Source: an uncultured bacterium (GTDB lineage: Bacteria; Bacillota_I; Bacilli_A; RFN20; CAG-826). From it: a DNA stretch of 37,927 nt. Shown piece after piece: positions 2,821 to 37,927 of the stretch (position 1 is the first letter of the stretch; each line of letters opens with the position of its first letter). Below the pieces are notes generated by a model. That model did not search any database, had not been told where the DNA came from, and worked only from the letters and a program-made list of their open reading frames with translations. A program made the position numbers and the translations under genes. The stretch covers positions 1 through 37,927 of the forward strand of contig CASFSG010000022.1 of NCBI GenBank assembly GCA_949297305.1, given 5' to 3'.

Positions 2821-3285
2821 ATGGAACATAAAATTATTATTAAAAATCTATTAGAGACAGAAAAGCTAGCTAAACTACTCATTGACAATCTTTCTATACC
2901 CAATGTCATCACCCTTTCTGGCGATTTAGGAGCAGGGAAAACAACTTTTGTCAAAGGTTGTCTCAAAGCTTTAAATTATCAAGGTAAGGTCATATCACCC
3001 ACTTTTAATATTTTAAAATGCTACTTTGATGTTCAACCGCATATTTATCATATTGATGCCTATCGCTTAGAAGACAATAATCACGATTTAGGATTAGAGG
3101 AATATATTGAAAGCGATGGCTTATGTTTTATCGAGTGGCCACAGTTTATTGCTGATATTATTCCAAATAAACATTTAGAAATTTATATAAAAATTATCGA
3201 TGATGAACATCGTGAATTTATTTTTATCGATCGCCATAATTTCTATCAAGATTTTTTTAAGGAGTTAGTTAATAATGGGTTATAA
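2821..3285 (+). CDS. tsaE: tRNA t6A biosynthesis ATPase TsaE
   Basis: A 154-residue P-loop ATPase that works with TsaB and TsaD to add threonylcarbamoyl to A37 of ANN-decoding tRNAs. Visible marks are the Walker A GDLGAGKTT at about 34-42, then SPTFN near 59, HIDAYRLE near 77 and FIEWPQ near 102. All are in the usual TsaE order and the length is normal. The start has AAAGG about 8 nt upstream and the divergent promoter before it. It is the first gene of tsaE-tsaB/rimI-tsaD, and its 3' end overlaps the next gene by 11 nt. Confidence 0.95.
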   Translation: MEHKIIIKNLLETEKLAKLLIDNLSIPNVITLSGDLGAGKTTFVKGCLKALNYQGKVISPTFNILKCYFDVQPHIYHIDAYRLEDNNHDLGLEEYIESDGLCFIEWPQFIADIIPNKHLEIYIKIIDDEHREFIFIDRHNFYQDFFKELVNNGL

Positions 3286-4333
3286 TCTATATCTCGATTC
3301 TTCTAATAAATTGTTATTTGTCCTTCTTAGTAAGGATGGTATATTGCTCGATAAAATTGTTTATGACGCCTCTTTAAGGCAAAGTGAAACGATGGTTTTA
3401 GAAATAGAACATATTTTAAAAAGAAATAATCTTAGAAAAAAAGAGTTATCTAACATTATTGTTGGGATAGGACCAGGCTCTTATACAGGCGTTAGAATTG
3501 GCATTATAGTTGCGAAGGTTTTAGCTTATTCACTAAAAATTCCTCTTTTTGCGATCAGCTCATTATCTTTATTAAAAATACCGCAAAAACCAACTATTTG
3601 TTTATTAAACGCTCGCGCAGAACGAGTTTATTTTGCTGTTTATGATGGTGAAGATATTTTGGTAGAGCCTTGTGTTATTTCGCTTATTGAAGCAAGAAAA
3701 TATATCGAATCACATCCAACATATCTCCTTAGTGGTGATGCTTATTTATTTAATTTAAAAAGCGCGAGTTATGATGCAATTCAAAATTTGTTAGATGGTT
3801 TTAATCCTAAGTATTTAGTAAAAAATATTTTTGCCTTAAAACCTATTTATTTAAAGGAATATAATGTCCCAAATTCGCATTTAGAGATTATTGAGGGTGA
3901 TGTTAATTATCTTGATGAAATATATGCTTTAGAGATTGCTAGTTTTAAAGAAGCTTGGAAGAAAGAAGATATTCTTTTTTCTTTAAAAAATAATCAATCG
4001 AACAAATATTTGCTTTTATTTTTAAATAAAGAATTAATCGGATTCTTAAGTTATATCGATATGTTTACGACCGCAACGATTGTCCAAATATGCATTAAAA
4101 ATGAATTTCGTCGTTTAGGCTATGGCAAAATGCTCATGGAGGAGATGGAAAAGAAATTAACTAGCAAAATAGAAAAGTGTGAGTATATTTCTTTAGAAGT
4201 GCGCGCTTCTAATAGCGGCGCTATTAAGTTTTATGAAAAGTTAGGTTATCAGTTTATTGTTAACAAAAAACATTATTATAGTGATGGCGAGGATGCCTTA
4301 TATTTAGTGAAGGATTTAATTGGTGAAAAATGA
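3275..4333 (+). CDS. tsaB-rimI: Fused TsaB - RimI (t6A complex subunit + ribosomal S18-type N-acetyltransferase)
   Basis: A 352-residue protein with two domains that are usually separate. Residues 1 to ~195 are TsaB, an inactive ASKHA-fold paralogue that dimerises with TsaD: the core GIGPGSYTGVRIG lies near 64-76 and IPLFAISSL near 89. Residues ~205-350 are a GNAT acetyltransferase of the RimI type, with the acetyl-CoA loop RRLGYG near 278 and the C-terminal NSGAIKFYEKLGY typical of RimI. The reading frame runs through without interruption. AAGGAG precedes the ATG, which lies inside the end of tsaE. The stop overlaps tsaD by 4 nt. Fusions of this kind are known in other bacteria. The acetylation substrate here is inferred, not shown. 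Confidence 0.93.
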   Translation: MGYNLYLDSSNKLLFVLLSKDGILLDKIVYDASLRQSETMVLEIEHILKRNNLRKKELSNIIVGIGPGSYTGVRIGIIVAKVLAYSLKIPLFAISSLSLLKIPQKPTICLLNARAERVYFAVYDGEDILVEPCVISLIEARKYIESHPTYLLSGDAYLFNLKSASYDAIQNLLDGFNPKYLVKNIFALKPIYLKEYNVPNSHLEIIEGDVNYLDEIYALEIASFKEAWKKEDILFSLKNNQSNKYLLLFLNKELIGFLSYIDMFTTATIVQICIKNEFRRLGYGKMLMEEMEKKLTSKIEKCEYISLEVRASNSGAIKFYEKLGYQFIVNKKHYYSDGEDALYLVKDLIGEK

Positions 4334-24823: not shown

Positions 24824-25489
24824 ATGAAAAAGGAAGATAACACATCGCCCTTAGAAATAGAATATTCTTATAAAAAACAACCTGTGTATGATTTTTTTAA
24901 GCGCTTTTGCGATATTTTCGTCTCTTTGTTTTCTTTAATTTTATTATCTCCCGTTTTCCTCGTTTTAATGATTTTAGTTAAAGCTACATCTGAAGGACCA
25001 ATCTTTTTTAAACATCGCCGCGTCGGGAAAGGTGGTGTTGATTTTTATGTATATAAATTTCGCACGATGAAACATGATTCACGTTCAATTGCTGAGACAC
25101 TAACAAAAGAAGAGTTTGAAGAATATTTAGTTGATTTAAAACTTAAAGAAGATCCGCGTGTTACTAAATTTGGCCGTCTATTAAGAAAATCTTCTTTGGA
25201 TGAATTACCGCAATTATTCAATATCTTAAAAGGCGATATGTCTTTAATTGGCCCTCGACCAATTTTAAGAGAATACGAATTAGAACGATTTGGAAAATAC
25301 CAAGATTTATTACTTAAAGTTCGTCCTGGTTTAACTGGCTATTGGGGCACGCACGGGCGAAATGATACAACTTACGAAGAAAGAATTAAAATGGAATTAT
25401 ATTACATTACTAAAAGATCTTTTTGGATGGATACTAAAATATTCTTTTTAACCTTTAAAGCCATCTTTACTAAGAAAGGGGCAATTTGA
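24824..25489 (+). CDS. Initiating phosphoglycosyl transferase (bacterial sugar transferase family)
   Basis: A 221-residue monotopic membrane enzyme that transfers a sugar phosphate from a UDP-sugar to undecaprenyl phosphate, the first step in building a lipid-linked glycan. The N terminus has one hydrophobic segment at about 28-50 (re-entrant helix) after KRFCDI. The family motifs follow: PIFFKHRRVGKGG near 62, FYVYKFRTMK near 76, the catalytic KSSLDELPQLFNILKGDMS near 125 with its Asp-Glu pair, and GPRP near 146. RPGLTG near 172 is near the C terminus. The length is that of the catalytic core without the extra N-terminal membrane domain of WbaP. It heads the plus-strand glycan operon. The sugar (galactose, glucose or an N-acetylhexosamine) cannot be read from sequence. 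Confidence 0.93.
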   Translation: MKKEDNTSPLEIEYSYKKQPVYDFFKRFCDIFVSLFSLILLSPVFLVLMILVKATSEGPIFFKHRRVGKGGVDFYVYKFRTMKHDSRSIAETLTKEEFEEYLVDLKLKEDPRVTKFGRLLRKSSLDELPQLFNILKGDMSLIGPRPILREYELERFGKYQDLLLKVRPGLTGYWGTHGRNDTTYEERIKMELYYITKRSFWMDTKIFFLTFKAIFTKKGAI

Positions 25490-25490
25490 G

Positions 25491-28412
25491 ATGTTAGATC
25501 ACTTAAAAAGCCGATCGTATGCGAATAAAATTTTACTTTACATTATCGTTTTTATCGGCGGATTTCTTTTATTAAATGTTGGCTTATTCGATACAACTGG
25601 ATTTTTGAGAACCTTACACCTTGAAGAATTTTTAATTATTTTTGGTGTTTTCTTATTAATTCTATTTGCGTTTGCCTATATTAATCATAAGCATAATCGT
25701 TATAAGACTAATTATCTTTTAGTCGCGGGCTTATTAATTTTAACCATCATGTCTTTTTTTGTTTTAGTGCTATCGCCTAATACTTATGAAGTTAGTTATC
25801 AAGGTTTAATAAAAGAAGTAACATTTAATTTTGAAAATAAAACTTATTTTTTAATTGGTTCCTTTCTCAGCTGTTTTTTCTTTTATTTATTTATTTATGT
25901 TATTCCTCGTTCTTTTTATTATCGTAAACAATTCAAATGGATTATTTATCTATTTCTGCTTTTTCTCCTAGCAGGTTTAATCTATAGCTATGTTGTTGAA
26001 TATGATAATTATTTAAATTTTCTTTCTTCGTTTAATAGTGGTGATATTTACTCTTCTACCACCATGTCTTTTTTTGGACATCGTAACGTCTATGGTCTCG
26101 TCTTATTTTTAGGAGTTATTTCTTTACTATATCTCCATTATTTAAATAAGAAATTTTATTGGTACATTTTAATTGCCTTTTTATGTTTGAATATGGTTTT
26201 TACATTAAGTAAAACACCCATGTTGCTTACTGCCTTTATTCTAGTTTGTTATTTATTTATGCGTTTTCTTTTATCGTTTAAGGCGCATCGAAAACGCAAC
26301 CTAATCACCTTTGGGGTTTTCTTCATTATAACTACGACAATTATTGTTTTAGTTACTGTTGGAGCCTTTTATCAGATTCCTTATATTTCTAAAATTTCTA
26401 ATGCTTTTAAAGATATAATTTCTAGTGGTTCTAACACTTTCGATAGTCGACTAGCTATTTGGATTAATACTTTCAATTTATTTACATCTAATCTTCTCAA
26501 TATGATGTTTGGTTTTGGCTTTGGAGTTTTTGATCATCTTTTATTTGCCTATCAATCAATCGTTCCAGGCGCGGAAGCAACATCTAATATTCATAACGGC
26601 TATTTGATGCTTGTTTCGCAAGGCGGCATCATCTTGCTAGCATCTTTTATTTTAGTAATTATTTATTTAGTTTATATCATTATTAAAATGTATAAAATTG
26701 ATAAAGACCTATCTTTATTTTCCCTCTTTTTATTAATTGCAAGTTTAGGCTATATGATGATGGAATCGCGAGCGATTATCTTTACTAATTCTCCTGATAT
26801 GATCTATCTAACTTTTATTGCTACTTCACCTCTATTAGCTAGCTACTATCATTATCATCACCCTTTAATCAATGAGGAAATTCGTTATAGCGGAAAACAA
26901 ATGGTAAACGAAAATTTTTCTATCACCTTTCAAGAAGAATATGGTCTTGCTAAATTTTTGATGTATTTATTAACACCGATTGTAGGAACTTATTATGGGT
27001 TTATCTATCATTTAAGTGAAACATTTGGTTGTTCGGAAACTATTTTATATTCCGTTGGAGGAGCGTTAATTTTTATTTATTTATTTGTCCCATTTATTGT
27101 TCAAATGCTCTATGATTTCTCTAAGAAAAAACGCGTCAATTATTTGTATTATCCCCGTAAAGTCCTATTATTTTATTTAATTGCTGTTTCTTTAGATGCC
27201 GCTGCAATTTTTTTAATAATTTATTTTTCATCTTCCGTTAATACAATTTATTTAGTGATTTTTTCAATTGCTTCACCAATCTATTTTTATGTGCTTTTAT
27301 ATGTTGTTCACTATTTTAGAAAATTTACTGGAACTGGCGAATTTATTCATCGCATTAATTATTTATGTCTTTTCTCTTTAAATAAAAATATTCTTTTAGA
27401 CGATTATCATCACAAAAAAGATGCTCCATTAAATTATGAGGCGAACAAAAAATATATTTTGCTTATTGCTGACGATGATTTATACCGCTTGAATTTATGC
27501 AAAGAACTTGCTAGTCGCGGCTATGAAGTGATTGTTTATGATGAATTAATGAATAACTTCTTACATAAAATTAATTCGCGTCTACCTTATAGGCAAAATC
27601 TCGAAGCTAGCCGCATTTATCTCGATGATATTTTATTTGATAATTTATTCATCGCATTTTCCTATGTCATAGTCTCAAGTGGTCGCGGATTAACAATTAA
27701 TATGGTCAAAGACTTAAAAGAATATCATCAAGAAGCTCAATTCATTTTTTATAATCCTTATTTAATCAGTCAATATTATTATTCTTCAGTTTTGTATCGT
27801 TTATTCGATAAAACTTATACGCTTTATGCTGCTGATGCCTTTACTTATCAAATGAATTTAATCAAATCTTATTATTTCAATGAAGTTTTGTCCTATCGCG
27901 ATATTAAGATAACTGACGATTTTATCATTTTATCGAATGCGACAAATTTATCATCTTTAAAAAAGACCGCTGATATTTTTTATTCGCAATATTCTCGCGG
28001 TAATATTGTCGTGCGTTTGCCACTTAAAAAGCATGATAAATTCTTTAAAAAAGCTCGACGTATTTTAGGAAAATACTATGATAAGGTCACCTTTGTTAAT
28101 TCCTTTTTCACCGAAGATTTAATCTTAAAAATCGCTAAAGTGAAATATTATGTTGATTTAGTTAGTAAAGACGCTATGAATAACATTGATTTAAAGAATA
28201 TACTCATTTTAAAGAAAAAGATTGTCACTAATAATCGCATTGCTAAACTTGTTGATAACTATTCACCAAACGATATTTATATTTTCTTAAAAGAGGAAAT
28301 GCTAAATTTAGAAGACATTTTCTTTAATAATAATATTTATGATGATTTTAGCGAAACGATAATTCATGATAGCAATATTAAAGTGTTTGTTGATGATTTA
28401 TTAGCGAAATGA
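25491..28412 (+). CDS. O-antigen polymerase/ligase-like membrane protein fused to a degenerate GT-B-like domain
   Basis: A 973-residue protein in three parts. Residues 1 to ~455 have about twelve membrane spans and the Wzy/WaaL-family signature. FGHRNVYG lies near 195, and a long loop contains SNIHNGYLMLVSQGG near 365-379, the region bearing the conserved His of this superfamily. Residues ~485-615 form a second block of about four spans. Residues ~645-973 are soluble and look like a GT-B fold: KYILLIADDD, then LCKELASRGYEVIVYDE (a Rossmann start), then FIILSNATNLSSLKK and later alpha/beta units. No EX7E catalytic pair is seen, so this part may be non-catalytic. AAAGGGG precedes the ATG, and the gap to the upstream stop is 1 nt. 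The frame is unbroken across all joints. Confidence 0.78.
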   Translation: MLDHLKSRSYANKILLYIIVFIGGFLLLNVGLFDTTGFLRTLHLEEFLIIFGVFLLILFAFAYINHKHNRYKTNYLLVAGLLILTIMSFFVLVLSPNTYEVSYQGLIKEVTFNFENKTYFLIGSFLSCFFFYLFIYVIPRSFYYRKQFKWIIYLFLLFLLAGLIYSYVVEYDNYLNFLSSFNSGDIYSSTTMSFFGHRNVYGLVLFLGVISLLYLHYLNKKFYWYILIAFLCLNMVFTLSKTPMLLTAFILVCYLFMRFLLSFKAHRKRNLITFGVFFIITTTIIVLVTVGAFYQIPYISKISNAFKDIISSGSNTFDSRLAIWINTFNLFTSNLLNMMFGFGFGVFDHLLFAYQSIVPGAEATSNIHNGYLMLVSQGGIILLASFILVIIYLVYIIIKMYKIDKDLSLFSLFLLIASLGYMMMESRAIIFTNSPDMIYLTFIATSPLLASYYHYHHPLINEEIRYSGKQMVNENFSITFQEEYGLAKFLMYLLTPIVGTYYGFIYHLSETFGCSETILYSVGGALIFIYLFVPFIVQMLYDFSKKKRVNYLYYPRKVLLFYLIAVSLDAAAIFLIIYFSSSVNTIYLVIFSIASPIYFYVLLYVVHYFRKFTGTGEFIHRINYLCLFSLNKNILLDDYHHKKDAPLNYEANKKYILLIADDDLYRLNLCKELASRGYEVIVYDELMNNFLHKINSRLPYRQNLEASRIYLDDILFDNLFIAFSYVIVSSGRGLTINMVKDLKEYHQEAQFIFYNPYLISQYYYSSVLYRLFDKTYTLYAADAFTYQMNLIKSYYFNEVLSYRDIKITDDFIILSNATNLSSLKKTADIFYSQYSRGNIVVRLPLKKHDKFFKKARRILGKYYDKVTFVNSFFTEDLILKIAKVKYYVDLVSKDAMNNIDLKNILILKKKIVTNNRIAKLVDNYSPNDIYIFLKEEMLNLEDIFFNNNIYDDFSETIIHDSNIKVFVDDLLAK

Positions 28413-29497
28413 AAGTAGTATTAGTGCACGATTGGTTAACTAATATGGGGGGAGCCGAGAAAGTTCTCATCTATTTAGCCAAATTATTTCCCGACGCACC
28501 AATCTATACCTCGGTTGTTAATTACGCTAAAATTGACCCATTTTTTAAAACGCGAAAAATTATCACAACTTTTCTCCAAGGTAATAGACCCTATATTAAC
28601 AATCATAAGAAATATTTCCCCTTCATGCCTTTAGGCTTTCGTTCTCTTAAATTAGAAAAATGTGACCTAGTTATTTCATCTTCGAGTTCTTGTGCTAAAA
28701 TGGTTAAAATTCCTAAAGGCGCGATACATATCTGTTATTGTCACACTCCAATGCGTTATGCCTATTTTGCGCGCGAAGAATATGTTTCTCGCCTCGACAA
28801 ATGGCAACGGCCACTCGCTAATCTGTTATTAAAATATATGCGTTATGCCGATAAAAAATCCAATAAACATATCGACTATTTTATCGCTAATAGCAACGAA
28901 GTTAAAAATCGTATTAAAGAATATTATCACCGGGATGCTACAACAATTTTTCCTGGTGTGGAAGTTGATAAGTTTCAAGTAAGCGAAACAAACGATGGAT
29001 ATTATTTATGTTTATCGCGCTTAGTGTACTATAAACGATTCGATTTAGCCATTAAGGCTTGTAACGCCCTTAAAAAGCGTTTAATTATTGTGGGTGAAGG
29101 GGAAGCTTTAAATGATTTAAAGGAGATCAGCGGTCCGACAATTGAATTTGTTAATCGTGTCGATGATCAAGAATTAATTAATTACTTTATGAAGGCGAAA
29201 GCTTTCATTTTTCCCGCTTATGAAGATTTTGGCATTGTGCCTATTGAAGCGATGGCGTGCGGTAAACCAGTAATCGCTTATCATAAAGGCGGTTCGCTTG
29301 ATTATGTCATCGATGGCGTTACGGGTGTTTTCTTTTCTGAGCAAAGCCCACAAAGCGTCACTGACGCAATCATTAAATTTGAAAATACGATGTTTAATCC
29401 TTTTAAAATAAGGCAACATGCTTTAAAATTTTCTGTTGAGCGTTTTCAAAAAGAAATTCTCGACTTTATAGATAAATTACCATTAAAAAATAAATAA
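28409..29497 (+). CDS. GT4 family glycosyltransferase (mannosyltransferase WbaZ-like)
   Basis: A 362-residue GT-B enzyme. The N-terminal acceptor domain starts KVVLVHDWLTNMGGAEKVL with the glycine-rich loop. CYCHTPMRYAY near 111-121 is characteristic of WbaZ/WcaI-like mannosyltransferases. The donor domain has LSRLVYYKRFDLAI near 197 and the EX7E pair as E272 and E280 in EDFGIVPIE. Donor is probably GDP-mannose or GDP-rhamnose, given manA/manC/gmd/rmd in the locus, but this is inference. ATGA overlaps the upstream stop, so translation is coupled. No signal peptide is present. It should act at the inner membrane face on lipid-linked glycan. Confidence 0.9.
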   Translation: MKVVLVHDWLTNMGGAEKVLIYLAKLFPDAPIYTSVVNYAKIDPFFKTRKIITTFLQGNRPYINNHKKYFPFMPLGFRSLKLEKCDLVISSSSSCAKMVKIPKGAIHICYCHTPMRYAYFAREEYVSRLDKWQRPLANLLLKYMRYADKKSNKHIDYFIANSNEVKNRIKEYYHRDATTIFPGVEVDKFQVSETNDGYYLCLSRLVYYKRFDLAIKACNALKKRLIIVGEGEALNDLKEISGPTIEFVNRVDDQELINYFMKAKAFIFPAYEDFGIVPIEAMACGKPVIAYHKGGSLDYVIDGVTGVFFSEQSPQSVTDAIIKFENTMFNPFKIRQHALKFSVERFQKEILDFIDKLPLKNK

Positions 29498-29499
29498 AC

Positions 29500-30381
29500 A
29501 TGATACTTAAATTAATACCGATATATAAGCATAATATTTGGGGCGGACGCTATCTCAATGATTTATATCATCAATTAAATCAAGAAAATATTGGTGAAGC
29601 TTGGGTTTTAAGTGTATTAAATGATGATAACTCATTAGTTGAGAATTCCTCTTTAACTTTAAAAGATTATTTTCAAAAAGATCCTTCAATCATTTCCCAT
29701 CGTTATAAGGGTCAATTTCCCATTTTAGTAAAAATTATAGATGCCGAAGAACCTTTATCAATTCAAAATCACCCATCTGGTAAGACGGAATTTTGGCACA
29801 TTTTAAGTGCGAAAAAAGGAAGTTATATTTATCTAGGATTAAAAGAAACATTATCTAAGGAAGATTTAGAAAAATATCTTAATGATGGCTCAATTTTGGG
29901 ACATTTGAACAAAGTTAGAGTCTCACCAGGCGACTGTTATTTTATAAAACCAGGTACAATACATGCGATAGGGGAAGGTATTACTTTAGTTGAAATCCAA
30001 CAAAATATGAATGTTACATATCGTCTATATGATTATAACCGCCTAGATAATGAAGGTCATAAACGCGAGCTACATATTAAAGAAGCAGTAGAATGCGCGC
30101 GCTTAGAGCAATATAGTATCAATAAAATGTATCGTAACATCGAAGGCGAATTAATTCGCTGCCGTTTCTTTGATGTTAAAAGACATCGCCTTTATGGTAG
30201 AGAATTAAAGGTTGCCGACGAAAAAAGCTTTCATTATTTATTAATACTTGATGGCGAAGGCTCATTAATAAGCGGCAAAGAACATTTTAGTTTAAAAGAA
30301 GGCGATTCATTATTTATAACAGCTAGTCATGGGGCCTATTTAATCGAAGGCGATGTGGAATATTTATTGATTACTTTATAA
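29500..30381 (+). CDS. manA: Mannose-6-phosphate isomerase, class I (short)
   Basis: A 293-residue cupin-fold zinc enzyme converting fructose-6-phosphate to mannose-6-phosphate for GDP-mannose synthesis. Visible ligands are Q89 and H91 in SIQNHP, E97 in GKTEFWHI, and H155 in KPGTIHAIGEG. VEIQQNMNVTYRLYDYNR near 165 is the family signature. Bacillus ManA has roughly a dozen more residues between QxHP and GKTE. Here that loop is almost absent (PSGKTE), so the active-site entrance may be trimmed. No ribosome binding site is seen and the start is 2 nt after the GT4 stop, suggesting reinitiation. Its 3' end overlaps the convergent glycosyltransferase gene by 11 nt. Confidence 0.92.
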   Translation: MILKLIPIYKHNIWGGRYLNDLYHQLNQENIGEAWVLSVLNDDNSLVENSSLTLKDYFQKDPSIISHRYKGQFPILVKIIDAEEPLSIQNHPSGKTEFWHILSAKKGSYIYLGLKETLSKEDLEKYLNDGSILGHLNKVRVSPGDCYFIKPGTIHAIGEGITLVEIQQNMNVTYRLYDYNRLDNEGHKRELHIKEAVECARLEQYSINKMYRNIEGELIRCRFFDVKRHRLYGRELKVADEKSFHYLLILDGEGSLISGKEHFSLKEGDSLFITASHGAYLIEGDVEYLLITL

Positions 30382-31618
30382 CTAATTCTTTTTGAGCAAA
30401 ATCTTCATAAATCTTATATACATTATCATAGGAAAAATCATTCGCCCTAATTAAGCCCTTTTTAATTAGTTCCTCTTTAAAAAGTTCGTTTGATAAGACA
30501 TCATTCATCAATTTGGCAACATGGTTATAATCCTTTTCATCAAAGATGATTCCCCCCTCTTTAATCGTCCCAGGAATAGCGGATGATCGATAAGCGACAA
30601 TAGGCGTTTTCGTTAACATTGCTTCAATGAGAGGGACGCAGAAACCTTCGTGTTCCGACATGCATAAAAATAAATCAGCAAGATGATATATAGTCGCTAA
30701 TGATTTAAAGGGGGCATTCACTTCGAAAAAAATCGCATCTTCCATTTTTGCATCTTTGACTAAGGCATTTAAAAACTTCGAATAACTTTGATCATCTTCT
30801 TTGCCCACCAATATTAATCTTGAATTAGAATTATATTTTTTATAGTAAACATAAAAAGCTTTTATCACATCTTCAATTTTTTTATTAAAAACTTGTCGAC
30901 CAACAAAAATTATATTTGTTTTTCCATCATCATACTTAATTTTAGTATCGATATCATCTGCGACAGTTAAAATGTCGTTTGAACGCAAAAATAACGGCAA
31001 AACACCAGTATTTTTATATTTAAATTTCTTTAATTCTTCTTCATTAAATTCACTATCGCCTAAAGCTAAATCAAAATATGGGGCAAGTTCTTTAACTTGT
31101 TTATAGCCTAGTTTGGTCGCAAGATATTTTCTAACATCTCGAACAAAATATTTAGGGGGTGTAATGTTATGATAAATCATTATTTTTTTAGCTACTTCAA
31201 CATTTTTTACCAGTGAATGAATTTTCTTATCGCCAATAGCCATATGGTAAATCAAAATATCATATTGACTCGGCAAATATGCTTTTCGCGGAACTAAATT
31301 CGTTCGTTCAACACTGAGCATACTTTCGAAAACGATAATATTATTTAAACCCATTTTATCAAAGGAATCACTCATCAATACAACATCATTTCCAATCGCA
31401 TCATTTTTAACTAAAGTCGGAACAACTTGGACGATGCGTACTTTTTTATCTTCATATATTTGACGATGGTGAAGACGAAATTTAAATACATGATACATCG
31501 ATAGTATTTTTTTAACGCCAGTGATAAAATACATCTTTAGAATTGAAAATGACTTGACGCGTTTTTTTAGTATAAATTTGCGATCTAATATTTCTTTATT
31601 AATTTGATGATTATTCAT
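30371..31618 (-). CDS. GT4-like glycosyltransferase
   Basis: A 415-residue GT-B enzyme and the last gene of the minus-strand glycan operon. After a basic N-terminal region, the acceptor domain begins at RIVQVVPTLVKNDAIGNDV and includes YHNITPPKYF. The donor domain has NIIFVGRQVFNKKIEDVIKAF and the EX7E pair in EGFCVPLIE, followed by TPIVAYRSSAIPGT. The frame is open up to 31690, but that would place 80 nt inside the upstream gene. The ATG at 31618 has AAAGGA upstream and overlaps the previous stop by 8 nt, so it is chosen. The sugar donor is not evident. GDP-rhamnose or GDP-mannose is plausible from context. Confidence 0.88.
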   Translation of the reverse strand: MNNHQINKEILDRKFILKKRVKSFSILKMYFITGVKKILSMYHVFKFRLHHRQIYEDKKVRIVQVVPTLVKNDAIGNDVVLMSDSFDKMGLNNIIVFESMLSVERTNLVPRKAYLPSQYDILIYHMAIGDKKIHSLVKNVEVAKKIMIYHNITPPKYFVRDVRKYLATKLGYKQVKELAPYFDLALGDSEFNEEELKKFKYKNTGVLPLFLRSNDILTVADDIDTKIKYDDGKTNIIFVGRQVFNKKIEDVIKAFYVYYKKYNSNSRLILVGKEDDQSYSKFLNALVKDAKMEDAIFFEVNAPFKSLATIYHLADLFLCMSEHEGFCVPLIEAMLTKTPIVAYRSSAIPGTIKEGGIIFDEKDYNHVAKLMNDVLSNELFKEELIKKGLIRANDFSYDNVYKIYEDFAQKELVIK

Positions 31619-32795
31619 AGTCTTGTTCCTTTTCAATAAAATTTCGTAATTTTTTAATAACGATATCCCAACGATAATTCCTATTGACAAAATCTAAACC
31701 ATTTTTACCCATTTGGTTTCTGATATCGTGATTAGTAATCAAAAATTGTAACATTTTTACAAATTCATTTCTTCCTTGGTAATATAAACCGGCATTTGAG
31801 CGTTCAACTTGCCCTTTTAAAACTGCAGATTCCTCATTTACCAAAACTGGCTTTTGATACGCAAAAGCTTCTAAAATGACAATTGATAAACTTTCATATT
31901 TAGAAGGGTTTATTAATATATCAGCATGTTTTAATAAGGTATATTTTTCATCTTCATTAATAAAACCAGTCGCGATGATATCTTCGTTAGTAGGGATGTC
32001 TAGGTATAAGCCACCGACTAGCACCAATTTATATTCTTTATCTTTATTTATCCTTTTATAATATAGAAAATTATCGATTAAATCTTTTACGCCTTTAGAG
32101 GCATCTATTCGGCCGATATAGATAAGATACTTTTGATTTTCTAAATGGTATTTTTTTAATATCTGGTCACTAGTTTTTCTTTCTTCCTCAATCCCAATTC
32201 CTAAGATTATATTATCTTTGTTAGTAGCGTTCTCTTTAAAGATACTTATTGCGGTTTGTTTTTCTTCTTCGGTCTGATAAATGATTCGCTTTGCATATTT
32301 AAATTCATCTTGCATAATTTGATAATGAGCGTAGGGTTCTTCATGCAAAAATGGGATTAATATTCCTTTTTCTTTCGCTAGAATAATAGAAGCATAAGTA
32401 GGGTAATACAAATAACAAAAACACAAAATCGCTTGATATTTATCGTAGTTCTTTTTTATCTTTCGATTAATTTGCTTAATATATGGTCCCTGTCTTTTTA
32501 AAAATTTAAAACCATTTTGCCTATTATTATTTTTTTCTAAAAGCGACATGCTTATAGATTGTCTAATGACTTTTCTTTTTGGAGAATTAAAATAATAGAC
32601 ATTTACACCATCTAGATTAGTCTTACCGCTATGATAATATTTCTTCCAGGTATCATAATTTTTTGCCGTGCTAGTATAGACATCTATATCGTAATAGGGT
32701 AAAAGGTGATTCGCGTATTGCCTTACATAATCTTCCGCGCCACCATTGACTTCTTTGCCATATCTTTGAATGATAAAGAGCAATTTCTTTTTCAT
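31611..32795 (-). CDS. GT4 family glycosyltransferase
   Basis: A 394-residue GT-B enzyme. The N-terminal domain starts LLFIIQRYGKEVNGGAEDYVRQYANHL with the typical GG-A loop. The donor domain has IYIGRIDASKGVKDLIDNF, GFINEDEKYTLLKHADILINPSKYESLSIV with the EX7E pair ESLSIVILE, and QKPVLVNE. The start directly follows the TAG of the preceding 102-residue gene, with GGTAGAG as weak ribosome binding site inside its end. It works with the other transferases on the ABC-exported polymer by context. The linkage and sugar are unknown. Confidence 0.9.
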   Translation of the reverse strand: MKKKLLFIIQRYGKEVNGGAEDYVRQYANHLLPYYDIDVYTSTAKNYDTWKKYYHSGKTNLDGVNVYYFNSPKRKVIRQSISMSLLEKNNNRQNGFKFLKRQGPYIKQINRKIKKNYDKYQAILCFCYLYYPTYASIILAKEKGILIPFLHEEPYAHYQIMQDEFKYAKRIIYQTEEEKQTAISIFKENATNKDNIILGIGIEEERKTSDQILKKYHLENQKYLIYIGRIDASKGVKDLIDNFLYYKRINKDKEYKLVLVGGLYLDIPTNEDIIATGFINEDEKYTLLKHADILINPSKYESLSIVILEAFAYQKPVLVNEESAVLKGQVERSNAGLYYQGRNEFVKMLQFLITNHDIRNQMGKNGLDFVNRNYRWDIVIKKLRNFIEKEQDYE

Positions 32796-33104
32796 CTATT
32801 TTTCTCTACCTTTTTCTAGTTCTTTAAGACGAGCATTTAAATTATAAATGACGCGAATAGTGGCCTTTTCAAATTCTTTCACTTCGCGCATTTGTTTTTC
32901 TAATGTTCCGCGTATTGCTTTGTTGATAATCTTACGAATAACTTTCTTCATCTTATTATCATTTGGCAAATCTAAACTTAATTCGCGATATACTTCCCTC
33001 TTTAATTCGTCAAAAAGAACGCGAAATTCTTCATCGTCGATTAAATCGCTTTGTGAAGATTCTTTTTTTAATAACTCAACAAGCTCTTTTGAATTTATTT
33101 CCAT
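32796..33104 (-). CDS. Small helical protein between wzt and glycosyltransferases
   Basis: A 102-residue soluble protein with very high Glu, Lys, Arg and Leu content, predicted all-helical. Residues ~1-40 are acidic. Residues ~50-100 are basic with heptad-like spacing of Ile, Val and Leu (KKVIRKIINKAIRGTLEKQMREVKEFEKA, then NLNARLKELEKG), suggesting an amphipathic or coiled-coil helix. I do not recognise a family. GGAGA precedes the ATG, which is 3 nt after the wzt stop, and its own stop touches the next ATG. Its fixed place in the operon argues that it is a real gene serving export or assembly, perhaps a coiled-coil adapter. That role is inference. Confidence 0.72.
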   Translation of the reverse strand: MEINSKELVELLKKESSQSDLIDDEEFRVLFDELKREVYRELSLDLPNDNKMKKVIRKIINKAIRGTLEKQMREVKEFEKATIRVIYNLNARLKELEKGREK

Positions 33105-33107
33105 AAT

Positions 33108-34283
33108 TTATCTCCATATGTGTTCGATATTAATTGCCCCTTCATTTTCTTTCTCATTTTTAATCGTAAATCCAATGTGTTCATTATGATAATCTAAACA
33201 TTCTTTATCATCGTTTAAAAATGTATTGATATGATACTCGCCGTTTTTAAAAGGCAAGTTTTTTAATAATAAAATAACTTCATTTTTCTTAGGATTAATT
33301 TCAGTGCTATCGACGAATAATTCTTGATTATTTTCATCGAGAACCACGATTCCGATAAGAGGATTTTTAATTTGAGAATTAAGCTGGTATTCCAATTTAA
33401 TTTTTAAGGATGAAAACGATGAAAATATTTTATTTTTGTGGCTATTTTCGTCTAAAAGCTCAATATTTATTATTTTTCCTAATGCGTCATTGTTTAATTT
33501 ATCACCTTTTGCGTCCCTAATTGCATTGGCGATTGTTTGTTCTTTCCCTTCTAGATAATCATCATATTTATCCGCTGTTTCTTTTGTTAGGCCATCATAA
33601 GAGATTAAGCCATCTTTTATCCAAATCGCACGCGTGCAGAAGGAACGAATTATATGATCATCATGGGTGACAATAATTATCGTTACACCCTTTTGTTTAA
33701 GTTCTTCTAAATGTCGATAACATTTCTCTTGGAATTTTTTATCGCCGACTGCTAAAATCTCGTCTATTAATAAAATATCCGCGTCTACATTAATTGCAAC
33801 AGAAAAGGCTAAACGCATGTACATACCACTAGAATATGTTCTAATTGGTACATCGATAAAATTTCCTAGTTCGGAAAATTCGATAATTTGATTTAAACGT
33901 GCATCAATTTCTTTTTTAGTTAAACCAAATATTGAAGCGTTAATATAGATGTTTTCTCGACCCGTCATATCAGGATGAAAACCTGCACCTAGTTCAATTA
34001 GACATGATAAACGTCCGTTAATAGTAACTTTCCCCCCATTAGGAGAATAAATACCTGATAGCAATTTTAATAATGTTGATTTACCGCAACCATTTCGACC
34101 AATTAATCCGACGACCTCACCTTGATAAACATCAAAAGACACACCATCTAAAACCTTCTTAATTTCATAACGATTTCTCTTCCAAAAGAGAATTTTATCT
34201 TTTAAATTAAAACCTTTGTCGTAATAAATTTTGAAGATCTTTTTTAAATTTTGGACACTAATTCTAAGCGGTGTTTCTTTCAT
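33108..34283 (-). CDS. wzt: Polysaccharide ABC exporter ATPase with C-terminal glycan-binding domain (Wzt type)
   Basis: A 391-residue protein. Residues 1-~245 are an ABC ATPase of the polysaccharide/teichoate export class. It has Walker A GRNGCGKST at 62-70, LIELGAGFHPDMTGRENIY near 86 (diagnostic of the Wzt/TagH class), the signature YSSGMYMRLAF near 149, Walker B ILLIDEILAVGD near 169 and the switch His in THDD. Residues ~265-391 are beta-rich and match the Wzt C-terminal domain that reads the end of the exported glycan. GGAGGA precedes the ATG, which abuts the wzm stop. A substrate-specific C-terminal domain suggests that the polymer carries a recognised end modification, though no methyl or phosphate capping enzyme is seen here. 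Confidence 0.94.
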   Translation of the reverse strand: MKETPLRISVQNLKKIFKIYYDKGFNLKDKILFWKRNRYEIKKVLDGVSFDVYQGEVVGLIGRNGCGKSTLLKLLSGIYSPNGGKVTINGRLSCLIELGAGFHPDMTGRENIYINASIFGLTKKEIDARLNQIIEFSELGNFIDVPIRTYSSGMYMRLAFSVAINVDADILLIDEILAVGDKKFQEKCYRHLEELKQKGVTIIIVTHDDHIIRSFCTRAIWIKDGLISYDGLTKETADKYDDYLEGKEQTIANAIRDAKGDKLNNDALGKIINIELLDENSHKNKIFSSFSSLKIKLEYQLNSQIKNPLIGIVVLDENNQELFVDSTEINPKKNEVILLLKNLPFKNGEYHINTFLNDDKECLDYHNEHIGFTIKNEKENEGAINIEHIWR

Positions 34284-35129
34284 CTATAATTCCTCCGCAA
34301 AACGTTTTTTACCTTTTTTGAAGACAAAAACGCCAATCACTAAAATGATGATAGCAGCACCGAAAGATAACCAAATTGATTGATAGGATGTAATATCGAA
34401 ATTTGGCCATCTCCCATAATAAAAAATAGCATGATAGGCATCGATTAAACTAGACATTGGATTTAAGTAAAATATCCATGCATAACTCCCAGCAATAGAT
34501 GTTTCATACATTATTGGAGTCGCATAAGTTAATCCCATCGATAAGACGCCCATAATATGCTCGAAATCTCTTAAATAAACAGATATTGTACTTGTAATTA
34601 AAGCAACACCCAAACATAAAATAAATTGGATTATAATAATTAAAGGAAAGGCGAACCAAGTTAAAAAATTATAAGATTCCCCATAAGCATTTAGTGGTGG
34701 AAAATTGAAAACAAACCCATTTGAAACATCAAAAAATACTGTCACTAATGTCACAACTGCGACGATGATAAAACAATAAAGCATATTAATAAAAGCAGTT
34801 AAAACATAAGAGAGAGGAATAACTTCCCGCGGAAAGTAAATTTTAGTGACTAAATTCTTTTGATGAATGAGACATTGCGATGCATTTGTAAACGAATTTT
34901 GAAAAAATAACCAAGGTATTAAACCAACAAAAACATATAAATAAAAATTAGGTAATGTCGATTTTAATAAGACTCCAAAAATAATCGTATAAATGATTAA
35001 TTGGAGCAAAGGATTGATAAATGTCCATAAAAAACCAAGGACACTGCCTTTATAACGCCCTCTAAGCTCGCGATGAGTTAGGCTAATAATCATTTGACGA
35101 TAAGCGTATAATTCCTTGATTAACTTCAT
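34284..35129 (-). CDS. wzm: Polysaccharide ABC exporter permease (Wzm/TagG type)
   Basis: A 281-residue ABC-2 family membrane protein with six predicted spans. The cytoplasmic N terminus contains LTHRELRGRYKGSVLGFLWTFINPL near 16-40, the conserved amphipathic gate motif of the family. Later segments FFDVS, LRDFEHIMG and YLNPMSSLIDAYH near 220 also fit. It forms a dimer with Wzt below it to pass lipid-linked polymer across the membrane. The gap to rmd is 2 nt and the next gene abuts it, so all are one operon. Confidence 0.94.
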   Translation of the reverse strand: MKLIKELYAYRQMIISLTHRELRGRYKGSVLGFLWTFINPLLQLIIYTIIFGVLLKSTLPNFYLYVFVGLIPWLFFQNSFTNASQCLIHQKNLVTKIYFPREVIPLSYVLTAFINMLYCFIIVAVVTLVTVFFDVSNGFVFNFPPLNAYGESYNFLTWFAFPLIIIIQFILCLGVALITSTISVYLRDFEHIMGVLSMGLTYATPIMYETSIAGSYAWIFYLNPMSSLIDAYHAIFYYGRWPNFDITSYQSIWLSFGAAIIILVIGVFVFKKGKKRFAEEL

Positions 35130-35131
35130 AT

Positions 35132-36070
35132 TTATTTTCTCGCGTAAGATAATATATCATTTAAAGTTTCTTTAAAAGTATATGATGGACGAAAACCAGT
35201 ATCTAAAAACAATTTTGTACTATCGCCATAATAATATTTTGTGTCGATGGGGCGAAATTTCTTTTCATCATGGCAAACGGTAATTTTCACATTACTATAC
35301 TCTAACAATTCATTTAATATATCCTCTATCTTCTGAGGCGATTGACTAGCAATATTATAAATTTTTCCTCTATGTCCTTTTTCAAGTAAAAGGCGATAAG
35401 CCTTCACCACGTCCCGCACATCTAAAAAATCGCGATAGGAATCGAGATTGCCTACATTAATTGTCGGAATTTGTTCCCCCTTTTCAATCGAGGCAATTTG
35501 ATAAGCGAAATCGGCGATTACAAAGTTTTTTGCTTGCCGCGGACCGCTATGATTAAAAGGTCTAGCAATAAGGTAATCTAAATCTTGGAATTCTTTCATT
35601 GCCATTTCTTCCATTTCTTTTTTTGATAAAGAGTATGGGTTATTTGGTCTAAGAGCATACTCTTCTTTAAGAGGCATTTCATTCAATGAATAAGAACCAT
35701 AAACTTCACCGGAAGAGACTAAAATAATGCGGATTTGCGGATTTATTTCTCTAATTGCTTCCAATATATTTCGTGTTCCTTGAACATTAATTGTCTTAGT
35801 TAAAGTCGGATTTTCCCAAGAAAATTTGACACTTGAAATGCCAGCAAGATGGACGATAGCAGAAATTTTGTTTTTCTTTAAAATGTCTTTAATTTGTTCT
35901 TTATTTAAAATATTTAAAATTTGATAGGGGTAACTATCTAATCCAATTTCATTTTCTAACTTAGTAATCGTTACTTTGTAATGATATTTAGTTAATTCAT
36001 CATATAAGTAAGGAGCAACAAAACCCGCTCCGCCAGTTATTAAGACGTTTTTAGCGTTTTCATCTTTCAT
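35132..36070 (-). CDS. rmd: GDP-6-deoxy-D-mannose (GDP-4-keto-6-deoxymannose) reductase
   Basis: A 312-residue extended SDR that reduces the Gmd product to GDP-D-rhamnose. The NAD(P)-binding loop is TGGAGFVAPYL near 12-22. SSGEVYG near 118 and PYSLSKKEME supply the catalytic Ser and Tyr-x3-Lys. ARPFNHSGPRQAKNFV near 168-183 and the following IADFAYQIASIEKG are hallmarks of Rmd. They distinguish it from GDP-fucose synthase (Fcl/WcaG), which would give L-fucose. The start overlaps gmd by 11 nt with no clear ribosome binding site, so translation is coupled to gmd. Confidence 0.9.
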   Translation of the reverse strand: MKDENAKNVLITGGAGFVAPYLYDELTKYHYKVTITKLENEIGLDSYPYQILNILNKEQIKDILKKNKISAIVHLAGISSVKFSWENPTLTKTINVQGTRNILEAIREINPQIRIILVSSGEVYGSYSLNEMPLKEEYALRPNNPYSLSKKEMEEMAMKEFQDLDYLIARPFNHSGPRQAKNFVIADFAYQIASIEKGEQIPTINVGNLDSYRDFLDVRDVVKAYRLLLEKGHRGKIYNIASQSPQKIEDILNELLEYSNVKITVCHDEKKFRPIDTKYYYGDSTKLFLDTGFRPSYTFKETLNDILSYARK

Positions 36071-37079
36071 TTTTTAATAAATTAATGTCATTTTCGACCA
36101 TTAATTTCACTAATGTTTTAAAATCTATTTCGCGATGCCAATTAAGAGCTCTTTCGGCTTTTTGGGCATCGCCGATTAATAATTCTACTTCGGCTGGACG
36201 ATAAAATTTCGGATTAACTTTAATTACTATTTCGCCTGTTGCTTTATTAATACCGATTTCATTTTCATTTTCGCCTTTAAATTCAATCTCTATCCCGGCA
36301 CATTTAAAAGCCTCAAGAGCAAATTCTCTAACTGAATGGGTCTCGCCACTAGCGATGACGTAATCATCTGGCTTATCTTGTAGTAACATCAAGTGCATCG
36401 CTTTAACATAATCTTTTGAATGTCCCCAGTCTCTTTTCGCATTTAAATTGCCTAATTCAATCGGGGTTTTATCGCCGTTAACAACCATTTTTGCAATCGC
36501 ATGTGTGATTTTACGCGTGACAAATTCCAATCCCCGACGTTCTGATTCGTGATTAAATAAAATGCCAGAGCAAGCAAATAAACCATATGATTCGCGATAA
36601 TTAATTGTTATCCAATGACCATATAATTTTGCCACACCATAGGGTGAACGGGGATAAAAAGGCGTTTTTTCATTTTGAGGAATTGCTTGGACTTTGCCAA
36701 ACATTTCGCTTGTTGAAGCTTGATAAAAATGAATTTTAGGATTGACTTGACGTATCGCTTCTAAAAAATTTGTCACGCCTAACGCATTGATTTCAGCTGT
36801 TGATAAAGGCGAATCCCAACTAGCTTTTACAAACGATTGCGCGGCTAGATTATAAACTTCATCCGGATTACTTTCTCTTAATGCCAATATGAGACTTGCT
36901 AAGTCGCTCACATCGCCATAAATAAAATGAATTTGTTCTTTTAAGTGTTCGACATTTCCAAAATCTTCTTTGGCTTTTCTCCTAATCAAGCCATAAACTT
37001 CATAACCCTCACTAAGCAATAATTCGCTTAAATAAGACCCGTCTTGGCCAGTAATGCCACTTATTAATGCTTTTTTCAT
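36060..37079 (-). CDS. gmd: GDP-mannose 4,6-dehydratase
   Basis: A 339-residue extended SDR that converts GDP-mannose to GDP-4-keto-6-deoxymannose. The NADP-binding GITGQDGSYLSELLL is at 8-22. The catalytic residues are T123 and E125 in ASTSEMFG, with Y147 and K151 in SPYGVAK. LFNHESERRGLEFVTRKIT near 182 binds GDP-mannose, and NLNAKRDWGHSKDYVKAM near 217 is typical of Gmd. Length is slightly short of E. coli Gmd but complete. GAGGT precedes the ATG. It lies 11 nt after manC and overlaps rmd, so the three form the GDP-D-rhamnose cassette. Confidence 0.96.
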   Translation of the reverse strand: MKKALISGITGQDGSYLSELLLSEGYEVYGLIRRKAKEDFGNVEHLKEQIHFIYGDVSDLASLILALRESNPDEVYNLAAQSFVKASWDSPLSTAEINALGVTNFLEAIRQVNPKIHFYQASTSEMFGKVQAIPQNEKTPFYPRSPYGVAKLYGHWITINYRESYGLFACSGILFNHESERRGLEFVTRKITHAIAKMVVNGDKTPIELGNLNAKRDWGHSKDYVKAMHLMLLQDKPDDYVIASGETHSVREFALEAFKCAGIEIEFKGENENEIGINKATGEIVIKVNPKFYRPAEVELLIGDAQKAERALNWHREIDFKTLVKLMVENDINLLKNER

Positions 37080-37090
37080 ATTTTACCTCA

Positions 37091-37927
37091 CTATAATTTA
37101 TCTTCTTTATCACTAGGTAAAGAAGAAATTAATTTCTTTATTTCGTTAATGGACTCTTTTTTTGACACTAAAACGATATCATTAGTTGCGACCACGATCA
37201 AATTATCGATATGATTGGTGACAATCAAAGGTCCTTTCGAATAGGCAATTGTATTGGTTGTTTCATAGGCGTAGGTATTGCCCACTAATGTGTTTTTGTT
37301 ATTATCGCAACCATAGATTCTTTCTAAAGCTTTCCAACTGCCAACATCATCCCAAACGAAAGATGATTTGATGGTATAAACATTTTGAGCTTTTTCCATT
37401 AAAGCATAATCGATTGAAATATTATCTATTTTTTCATAGACTTCTCTTAATACTTCTTCTTGCTTCTTTTTATCTTTTATAAAGATTTCATGCATTTGAT
37501 TATACTGTTGAGGCACAAATTCTTTTAAGGCCTTTTCTAAAGCTTTATTCGACCAAATAAACATTCCGGAATTCCACACATATTCATGACTAAGCAAATA
37601 TTTTGTAGCGGTCTTTTCATTAGGTTTTTCTTTAAATTCTGACACTTTATAAATATCATCGTTAGATACCTTATCACCTAAATGGATATAACCATATTCG
37701 GTATTAGGAGAAGTAGGAGTGATGCCTATCGTTAATAAAACATCGCGATTATTTGCAAACGCAATCGCTTTTCTTAAATCGTTTAAATAATTTTCCTCAT
37801 TCCTAATCAGGTGGTCGCTAGGTAAAACAATCATTACATAATCATCATAAATTTGATTGACAATTTCTAAGCCTAAATTAATTGCTGGAGCGGTATTTTT
37901 GCCACAAGGTTCATAGATGATATTTTC
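37091..37927 (-). CDS. manC: Mannose-1-phosphate guanylyltransferase, cut by window edge
   Basis: The C-terminal ~278 residues are present. The frame is open to the last base of the window, and the first residues (ENIIYEPCGKNTAPAI) are the internal family motif, so the ATG at 37834 is not the start. Missing are roughly the first 80 residues, including the GTP-binding GGxGTRLWP loop. Other marks are LPSDHLI, FKEKP, YVWNSGMFIW and VWDDVGSW in the usual order. The protein ends soon after the left-handed beta region and has no fused isomerase (AlgA-type) domain, consistent with a separate manA in this locus. It makes GDP-mannose from Man-1-P and GTP. The operon promoter lies outside the window. 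Confidence 0.93.
   Translation of the reverse strand, partial: ENIIYEPCGKNTAPAINLGLEIVNQIYDDYVMIVLPSDHLIRNEENYLNDLRKAIAFANNRDVLLTIGITPTSPNTEYGYIHLGDKVSNDDIYKVSEFKEKPNEKTATKYLLSHEYVWNSGMFIWSNKALEKALKEFVPQQYNQMHEIFIKDKKKQEEVLREVYEKIDNISIDYALMEKAQNVYTIKSSFVWDDVGSWKALERIYGCDNNKNTLVGNTYAYETTNTIAYSKGPLIVTNHIDNLIVVATNDIVLVSKKESINEIKKLISSLPSDKEDKL

Follow-up and report, generated by a model that had tools for sequence, protein, structure and literature searches.

The window analysed here, a stretch of 37,927 nucleotides from an uncultured bacterium, holds a glycan locus in which a membrane protein of the polymerase/ligase type continues, within one reading frame, into an extra membrane block and a soluble domain. 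The locus raises the question of whether such a three-part protein is real, where its parts came from, and what the soluble domain could do on an enzyme of this type.

Reading frame and gene neighbours

The frame begins at an ATG and runs without interruption through positions 25491-28412 (+), giving a protein of 973 aa in the ORF check of the window. The earlier note had considered an assembly fusion or frameshift between the parts, and this is not the case. In a search of 144 related genomes, both congeners were found to carry 973-aa orthologues, 83% and 42% identical to the window protein, and a second three-part paralogue of ~970 aa was present at another locus in 3/3 genomes of the genus, making six full-length copies across three congeneric genomes (two each). 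The glycan gene order around the window copy, namely phosphoglycosyl transferase, fused protein, GT4, mannose-6-phosphate isomerase-like protein, glycosyltransferases, Wzt, Wzm, two sugar-nucleotide enzymes and ManC, was kept in the third species, and in the second species as far as the contig was fetched. Since each congeneric genome has two full-length copies and the locus is syntenic, an artefact of assembly or frameshift is excluded, and the frame is real.

On the forward strand, the fused gene lies tightly packed between its neighbours. The gene for a WbaP-type initiating phosphoglycosyl transferase (24824-25489, +; Pfam Bac_transf, E 2.8e-64; TIGR03025/TIGR03022) ends 1 bp before it, and the gene for a GT4 glycosyltransferase (28409-29497, +; Glycos_transf_1, E 6.3e-30), whose EX7E motif is intact (EDFGIVPIE at residue 272), overlaps it by 4 bp. 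A type I mannose-6-phosphate isomerase-like protein follows (29500-30381, +; Pfam MPI_cupin_dom and PMI_typeI_cat). The reverse strand encodes two group 1 glycosyltransferases (30371-31690, Glycos_transf_1, E 4.3e-25; 31611-32795, Glycos_transf_1, E 9.8e-21), the ABC exporter ATPase Wzt with its carbohydrate-binding Wzt_C domain (33108-34283; Pfam ABC_tran and Wzt_C), the ABC-2 exporter membrane protein Wzm (34284-35129; Pfam ABC2_membrane), a reductase-like sugar-nucleotide epimerase/dehydratase (35132-36070; Pfam GDP_Man_Dehyd and Epimerase), a GDP-mannose 4,6-dehydratase (36060-37079; GDP_Man_Dehyd, E 6.3e-134) and the mannose-1-phosphate guanylyltransferase ManC, which is cut by the window end (37091-37927; NTP_transferase and ManC_GMP_beta-helix).

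Three further observations concern the annotation of the window. As listed, the two glycosyltransferase frames overlap by 80 bp, and the 30371-31690 frame probably starts downstream of the TTG given for it, because the congener frame is 20 residues shorter. Between the glycosyltransferase and Wzt genes lies a frame of 102 aa (32796-33104, -), 76% identical in one congener and with no Pfam match. Elsewhere in the window, a 352-aa protein (3275-4333, +) joins a TsaB/TsaD-like domain (residues 32-136) to a GNAT acetyltransferase (residues 214-325) and resembles a TsaB-RimI fusion.

The membrane part

The first part of the protein, residues 1-465 (25491-26885, +), is an O-antigen-ligase/Wzy_C membrane transferase core according to PF04932, the AlphaFold2 model and PDB profile matches. 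A polymerase/ligase-type core had been proposed from the sequence, and the Pfam search with the full 973-aa protein bore this out, with Wzy_C matched at residues 227-387 (E 2.5e-10; 40.8 bits against a curated cut-off of 31.7); nothing significant was found outside Wzy_C in that search, and the full protein had no match in NCBIfam. The full-length AlphaFold2 model placed 12 membrane helices in residues 10-456, with a large outer loop at residues about 294-369. A PDB profile search with 33 relatives retrieved the oligosaccharyltransferase 9rmk (E 3.2e-10) and the ligase WaaL 7tpg (E 5.7e-6), and WaaL was also the top, though weak, fold match of the full model (E 0.008). In the 7tpg alignment, R320 (codon 26448-26450, +) and H368 (codon 26592-26594, +) were aligned with WaaL Arg-265 and His-313, respectively; all 33 relatives have the Arg of R320, and the His of H368 is nearly invariant in them. 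In WaaL, Arg-265 binds the phosphate of Und-PP and His-313 is the proposed acceptor activator (PMC10920833).

The window protein therefore shares with WaaL ligases and PglL-type O-oligosaccharyltransferases (CAZy GT121, clan GT-C1) the Wzy_C domain, the 12-helix core, the large outer loop, and the Arg and His at these two positions, whereas it adds a four-helix block and a cytoplasmic GT-B tail and has a Lys (K241) in place of the first WaaL Arg. Because Lys and Arg are concentrated in the inside loops under the AlphaFold2 helix plan (32 in 161 residues, against 5 in 124 outside), the N- and C-terminus, and hence the soluble tail, are predicted to be cytoplasmic, with loop 294-369 outside.

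The earlier note had left the core as polymerase or ligase. Such a core is present, and we consider it likely to be a ligase, because the locus has Wzm/Wzt, H368 stands at the acceptor-activating position, and the locus of the second paralogue has a Wzy of its own. Glycans exported via Wzm/Wzt are finished inside, and this pathway needs a ligase and no Wzy. The paralogue locus has both its own Wzx and its own Wzy, as one 949-aa protein in two species and as two proteins in the third, so the second paralogue is likewise an extra Wzy_C protein there. The 949-aa fusion, Polysacc_synt followed by Wzy_C, was seen in the window's own genome (L121:3923-6772) and in a congener (L122:3336-6185). The alternative, in which the membrane part is a Wzy polymerase and the tail measures or positions repeat units, seems unlikely. 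It draws on the fact that Pfam Wzy_C takes in polymerases as well as ligases, which are not separable by sequence with certainty, and on the many family relatives that are fused to flippases, the usual partner of a polymerase; against it stand the Wzm/Wzt genes of a pathway without need for Wzy, the Wzy present besides the paralogue in 3/3 species, and the His, not Asp or Glu, at the acceptor-activating position, most polymerase families of the WaaL clan having Asp or Glu where ligases have His (PMC10920833).

For a predicted ligase, the closest comparison of gene content is with the S-layer glycan loci of Geobacillus and Paenibacillus alvei, where a WbaP-type starter and Wzm/Wzt occur together with a Wzy_C transferase, WsaB or WsfB, predicted to act on S-layer protein (PMC2943079). 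The window locus likewise has a Wzy_C transferase beside a WbaP-type starter and Wzm/Wzt. WsfB, moreover, also has a C-terminal accessory domain, although it consists of TPR repeats, whereas the accessory part of the window protein is a degenerate GT-B domain.

The second part, residues 466-636 (26886-27398, +), is the extra membrane block. In the full-length AlphaFold2 model, residues 485-636 formed a confident separate block of four membrane helices plus one amphipathic helix, in agreement with the four more spans read from the sequence. The block is indeed part of the architecture, but it is less unusual than had been supposed, as it also occurs in many two-part relatives that lack the soluble domain: in the same family, relatives with the core alone measure 460-520 aa and those with core and membrane block 600-740 aa, and they lack the tail. 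A vague resemblance of the block to the N-terminal membrane domain of a MurF-like protein was rejected, with no Pfam support and with the block occurring in two-part Wzy relatives.

Fold, ancestry and lost signature of the tail

The third part, residues 652-973 (27444-28409, +), is a predicted cytoplasmic GT-B domain of the WaaS/CpsH glycosyltransferase type in degenerate form, as indicated by AlphaFold2, PDB folds and hhalign. The full-length AlphaFold2 model had low confidence for the tail; residues 648-973 modelled alone from 27 aligned sequences reached a pLDDT of 87.9 and a pTM of 0.84. Compared with the PDB, this model gave 179 matches at E <= 0.001, the best 50 of the 179 being mainly GT-B transferases and GT-B-fold epimerases (the UDP-GlcNAc 2-epimerases among the matches share the GT-B fold). 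E-values against GT-B proteins were about 1e-8 to 1e-10, and TM scores were 0.66 for the mannosyltransferase 7qsg, 0.62 for BshA and 0.60 for PimA. Structure prediction followed by a fold search thus confirmed the GT-B-like soluble domain that the earlier note had suspected, with the two Rossmann-like halves of this fold.

The ancestry of the tail was reached through the congeners and stand-alone proteins, not through a direct search with the window tail. Used alone, the window tail had no match in NCBIfam and only a sub-threshold match in Pfam (Glyco_trans_4_2, E 0.25), and a PDB sequence search with it returned only designed Rossmann-type proteins at weak E-values. The tail profile, in turn, found stand-alone proteins of ~330 aa in other genera, and those from related genera matched NCBIfam NF053598 (WaaS/CpsH family glycosyltransferase) at E 1e-41 to 1e-80. 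The tails of the congener orthologues matched the same model over positions 1-317 or 2-317 of 318 (E 1e-7 and 7e-9), with 32 and 36 bits, below the 60-bit curated cut-off. With hhalign, the tail aligned to the stand-alone NF053598 proteins over 309 columns at a probability of 99% (E 8.5e-18), and the probability was 99% for both paralogue groups. As judged from these alignments, the tail is a divergent branch of the stand-alone WaaS/CpsH family and not a new fold. In E. coli, WaaS serves as the LPS-core rhamnosyl transferase (PMC4651636). The window tail aligns with this family over its whole length and folds as GT-B, whereas the family members are soluble stand-alones of ~330 aa that carry the signature Q-x-G-x-T-x-R-x-x-E, and the window tail is fused to a membrane protein, has lost the signature and falls below the model cut-off.

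The EX7E motif was absent from the window protein after residue 600, as the earlier note had observed. The absence is correct but not the telling feature it was taken for, since EX7E is not the motif of the WaaS/CpsH family, which has a related one; the loss of the family's own signature is what is informative. In the stand-alones, Q-x-G-x-T-x-R-x-x-E stands ahead of a KK-[IL]-[IV]-T-x-N stretch and may be their counterpart of EX7E, with Q conserved in 19/21, G in 20/21, R in 20/21 and E in 21/21. In the window protein and its two orthologues, these columns read A/S/N for Q, N/S/S for G, D/D/D for R and N/N/N for E; N903 (codon 28197-28199, +) occupies the position of the Glu found in 21/21 stand-alone WaaS/CpsH proteins (column count in alignment A3). 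Two further pairs were replaced in the window orthologue group, WD (16/21 each in the stand-alones) by PY and FD (19/21 each) by LY. The scaffold residues KK, T, the Tyr of FY and a late Phe were kept, and so were two acids conserved in the stand-alones, D810 and D889. In the second paralogue, the Glu was kept (3/3), and Q, G, R and the second Asp of FDxxD were gone.

The loss of the catalytic signature has not freed the tail from selection, which is strongly purifying: between the window protein and its nearest orthologue, dN/dS was 0.064 in the tail, as against 0.082 in the ligase core and 0.159 in the middle block. The second paralogue (L034:12641-15535, L038:10566-13463), with its Glu kept, showed the reverse of the window orthologues, with a dN/dS of 0.157 for the tail against 0.069 for the core. 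From its substitutions, the window tail probably no longer transfers sugar. This reading is one of conservation only, because no structure fixing the catalytic residues was found for the family, the WaaS/CpsH proteins having no match among PDB sequences. A different active site might be built from residues that are conserved among the orthologues.

Distribution and possible role of the fusion

The homologue search proposed in the earlier note recovered the three-part order only in this genus. Outside it, profiles of the tail found no fused three-part form in 224 family genomes, in 395 drawn from the class (NCBIfam model) or in 279 of the order, and a search of the collection with profile P0001 retrieved one congener contig only (CASFQR010000002.1). 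Within the genomes searched, the order is thus confined to the genus. A single fusion origin for both paralogues is compatible with the data, though weakly supported (48/56).

No library model gives this order, as had been supposed when the protein was said to have no described counterpart; on the other hand, Wzy_C-glycosyltransferase fusions recur in related genera. Three Wzy_C-GT4 fusions from related genera (L053:3379-5820, 813 aa; L112:1887-4298, 803 aa; L117:1547-3967, 806 aa) share with the window protein a C-terminal cytoplasmic GT-B domain behind a Wzy_C core, but have an intact EX7E and no four-helix block. A 1156-aa protein (L051:1179-4649) shares the Wzy_C core, membrane block and C-terminal GT-B domain, and differs in its type of GT-B (PF13524-like). 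Other combinations were Wzy_C-flippase fusions (L113:2897-5632, L114:2586-5357, L115:1970-4672), Wzy_C with flippase and pyruvyl transferase (L111:2574-6215), and a 1390-aa Wzy_C, GT4 and flippase protein (L118:1805-5977), the Wzy_C part of which was called by genome search. A phrase search of the literature found no paper on Wzx-Wzy or Wzy-glycosyltransferase fusions. As a novel combination of known parts and families, the window protein exemplifies a fusion habit that recurs in its bacterial family; what sets it apart is a tail that is degenerate and yet strongly conserved.

Considering all of these results, the explanation that we favour, at slightly better than even chances, is a predicted ligase with a membrane-anchored, non-catalytic coupling tail; that the tail serves in docking or recognition, without catalysis, we infer with slightly more assurance. 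In this model, the first part would be a glycan transferase of the outer face, with R320 holding the undecaprenyl diphosphate of the donor and H368 activating the acceptor; a glycan containing mannose or deoxymannose, brought to the outer face by the Wzm/Wzt of the locus, would be moved from its lipid carrier to a surface acceptor. The four-helix block, already present in relatives, would anchor the tail, a GT-B domain presumably captured from a WaaS/CpsH glycosyltransferase whose donor-site signature has gone. The tail would most likely bind the unfinished lipid-linked glycan, or else the phosphoglycosyl transferase, the neighbouring GT4 or Wzt, and such binding would couple assembly at the inner face and export to transfer at the outer face. 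A sensor or docking role had been suggested in the earlier note, whose interpretation is partly supported, and such a role would agree with all of the results. By analogy, WsfB, with its TPR tail, is a precedent for a Wzy_C transferase that ends in an interaction domain. GtfB, a glycosyltransferase homologue that acts as a chaperone beside GtfA in the GtfA/GtfB accessory-Sec complex (PMC6973325), is a precedent for a glycosyltransferase homologue as recognition partner, although GtfB is soluble, has a protein acceptor and belongs to another family.

The main rival reading for the tail, rather improbable in our judgement, is that of a still-working glycosyltransferase with a rewired active site, which would add a sugar inside while the glycan is ligated outside. 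In its favour, the model shows an intact GT-B fold at high confidence, no other part of the protein is as conserved as the tail, D810 and D889 are kept, and since independent Wzy_C-GT4 fusions with an intact EX7E exist in related genera, a working glycosyltransferase on such a tail is possible in principle. However, Q, G, R, E, WD and FD were all changed in 3/3 orthologues, and Q, G and R in the paralogues too, and each paralogue group has lost a partly different set, as expected of an activity that was lost and not moved. That the tail merely survives from an accidental fusion and now does nothing is very improbable: the decayed signature and the faster-evolving tail of the second paralogue would suit this view, but in the window orthologues the tail shows a lower dN/dS than any other part and is free of stops and frameshifts, and both paralogues have kept it in 3/3 species.

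The coupling tail might also be carried one step further, to a pseudo-glycosyltransferase serving as a built-in regulatory subunit, which would read the glycan or the enzymes inside and gate transfer outside; we put this forward tentatively, as a doubtful extension. If true, synthesis, export and attachment would be controlled within one polypeptide, which would fit the wider habit of the family of fusing Wzx, Wzy and glycosyltransferase machinery.

Wzx, Wzy and related enzymes are believed to form complexes with the enzymes of repeat-unit assembly (PMC10030265). Proof of a physical link from one side of the membrane to the other is difficult to obtain, and natural fusions between ligase-type proteins and glycosyltransferase domains, whether dead or alive, tell which partners must be close. 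Should the tail prove to be a pseudo-enzyme, it would offer a testable route from cytoplasmic assembly to attachment at the outer face, and a handle for the engineering of surface glycans.
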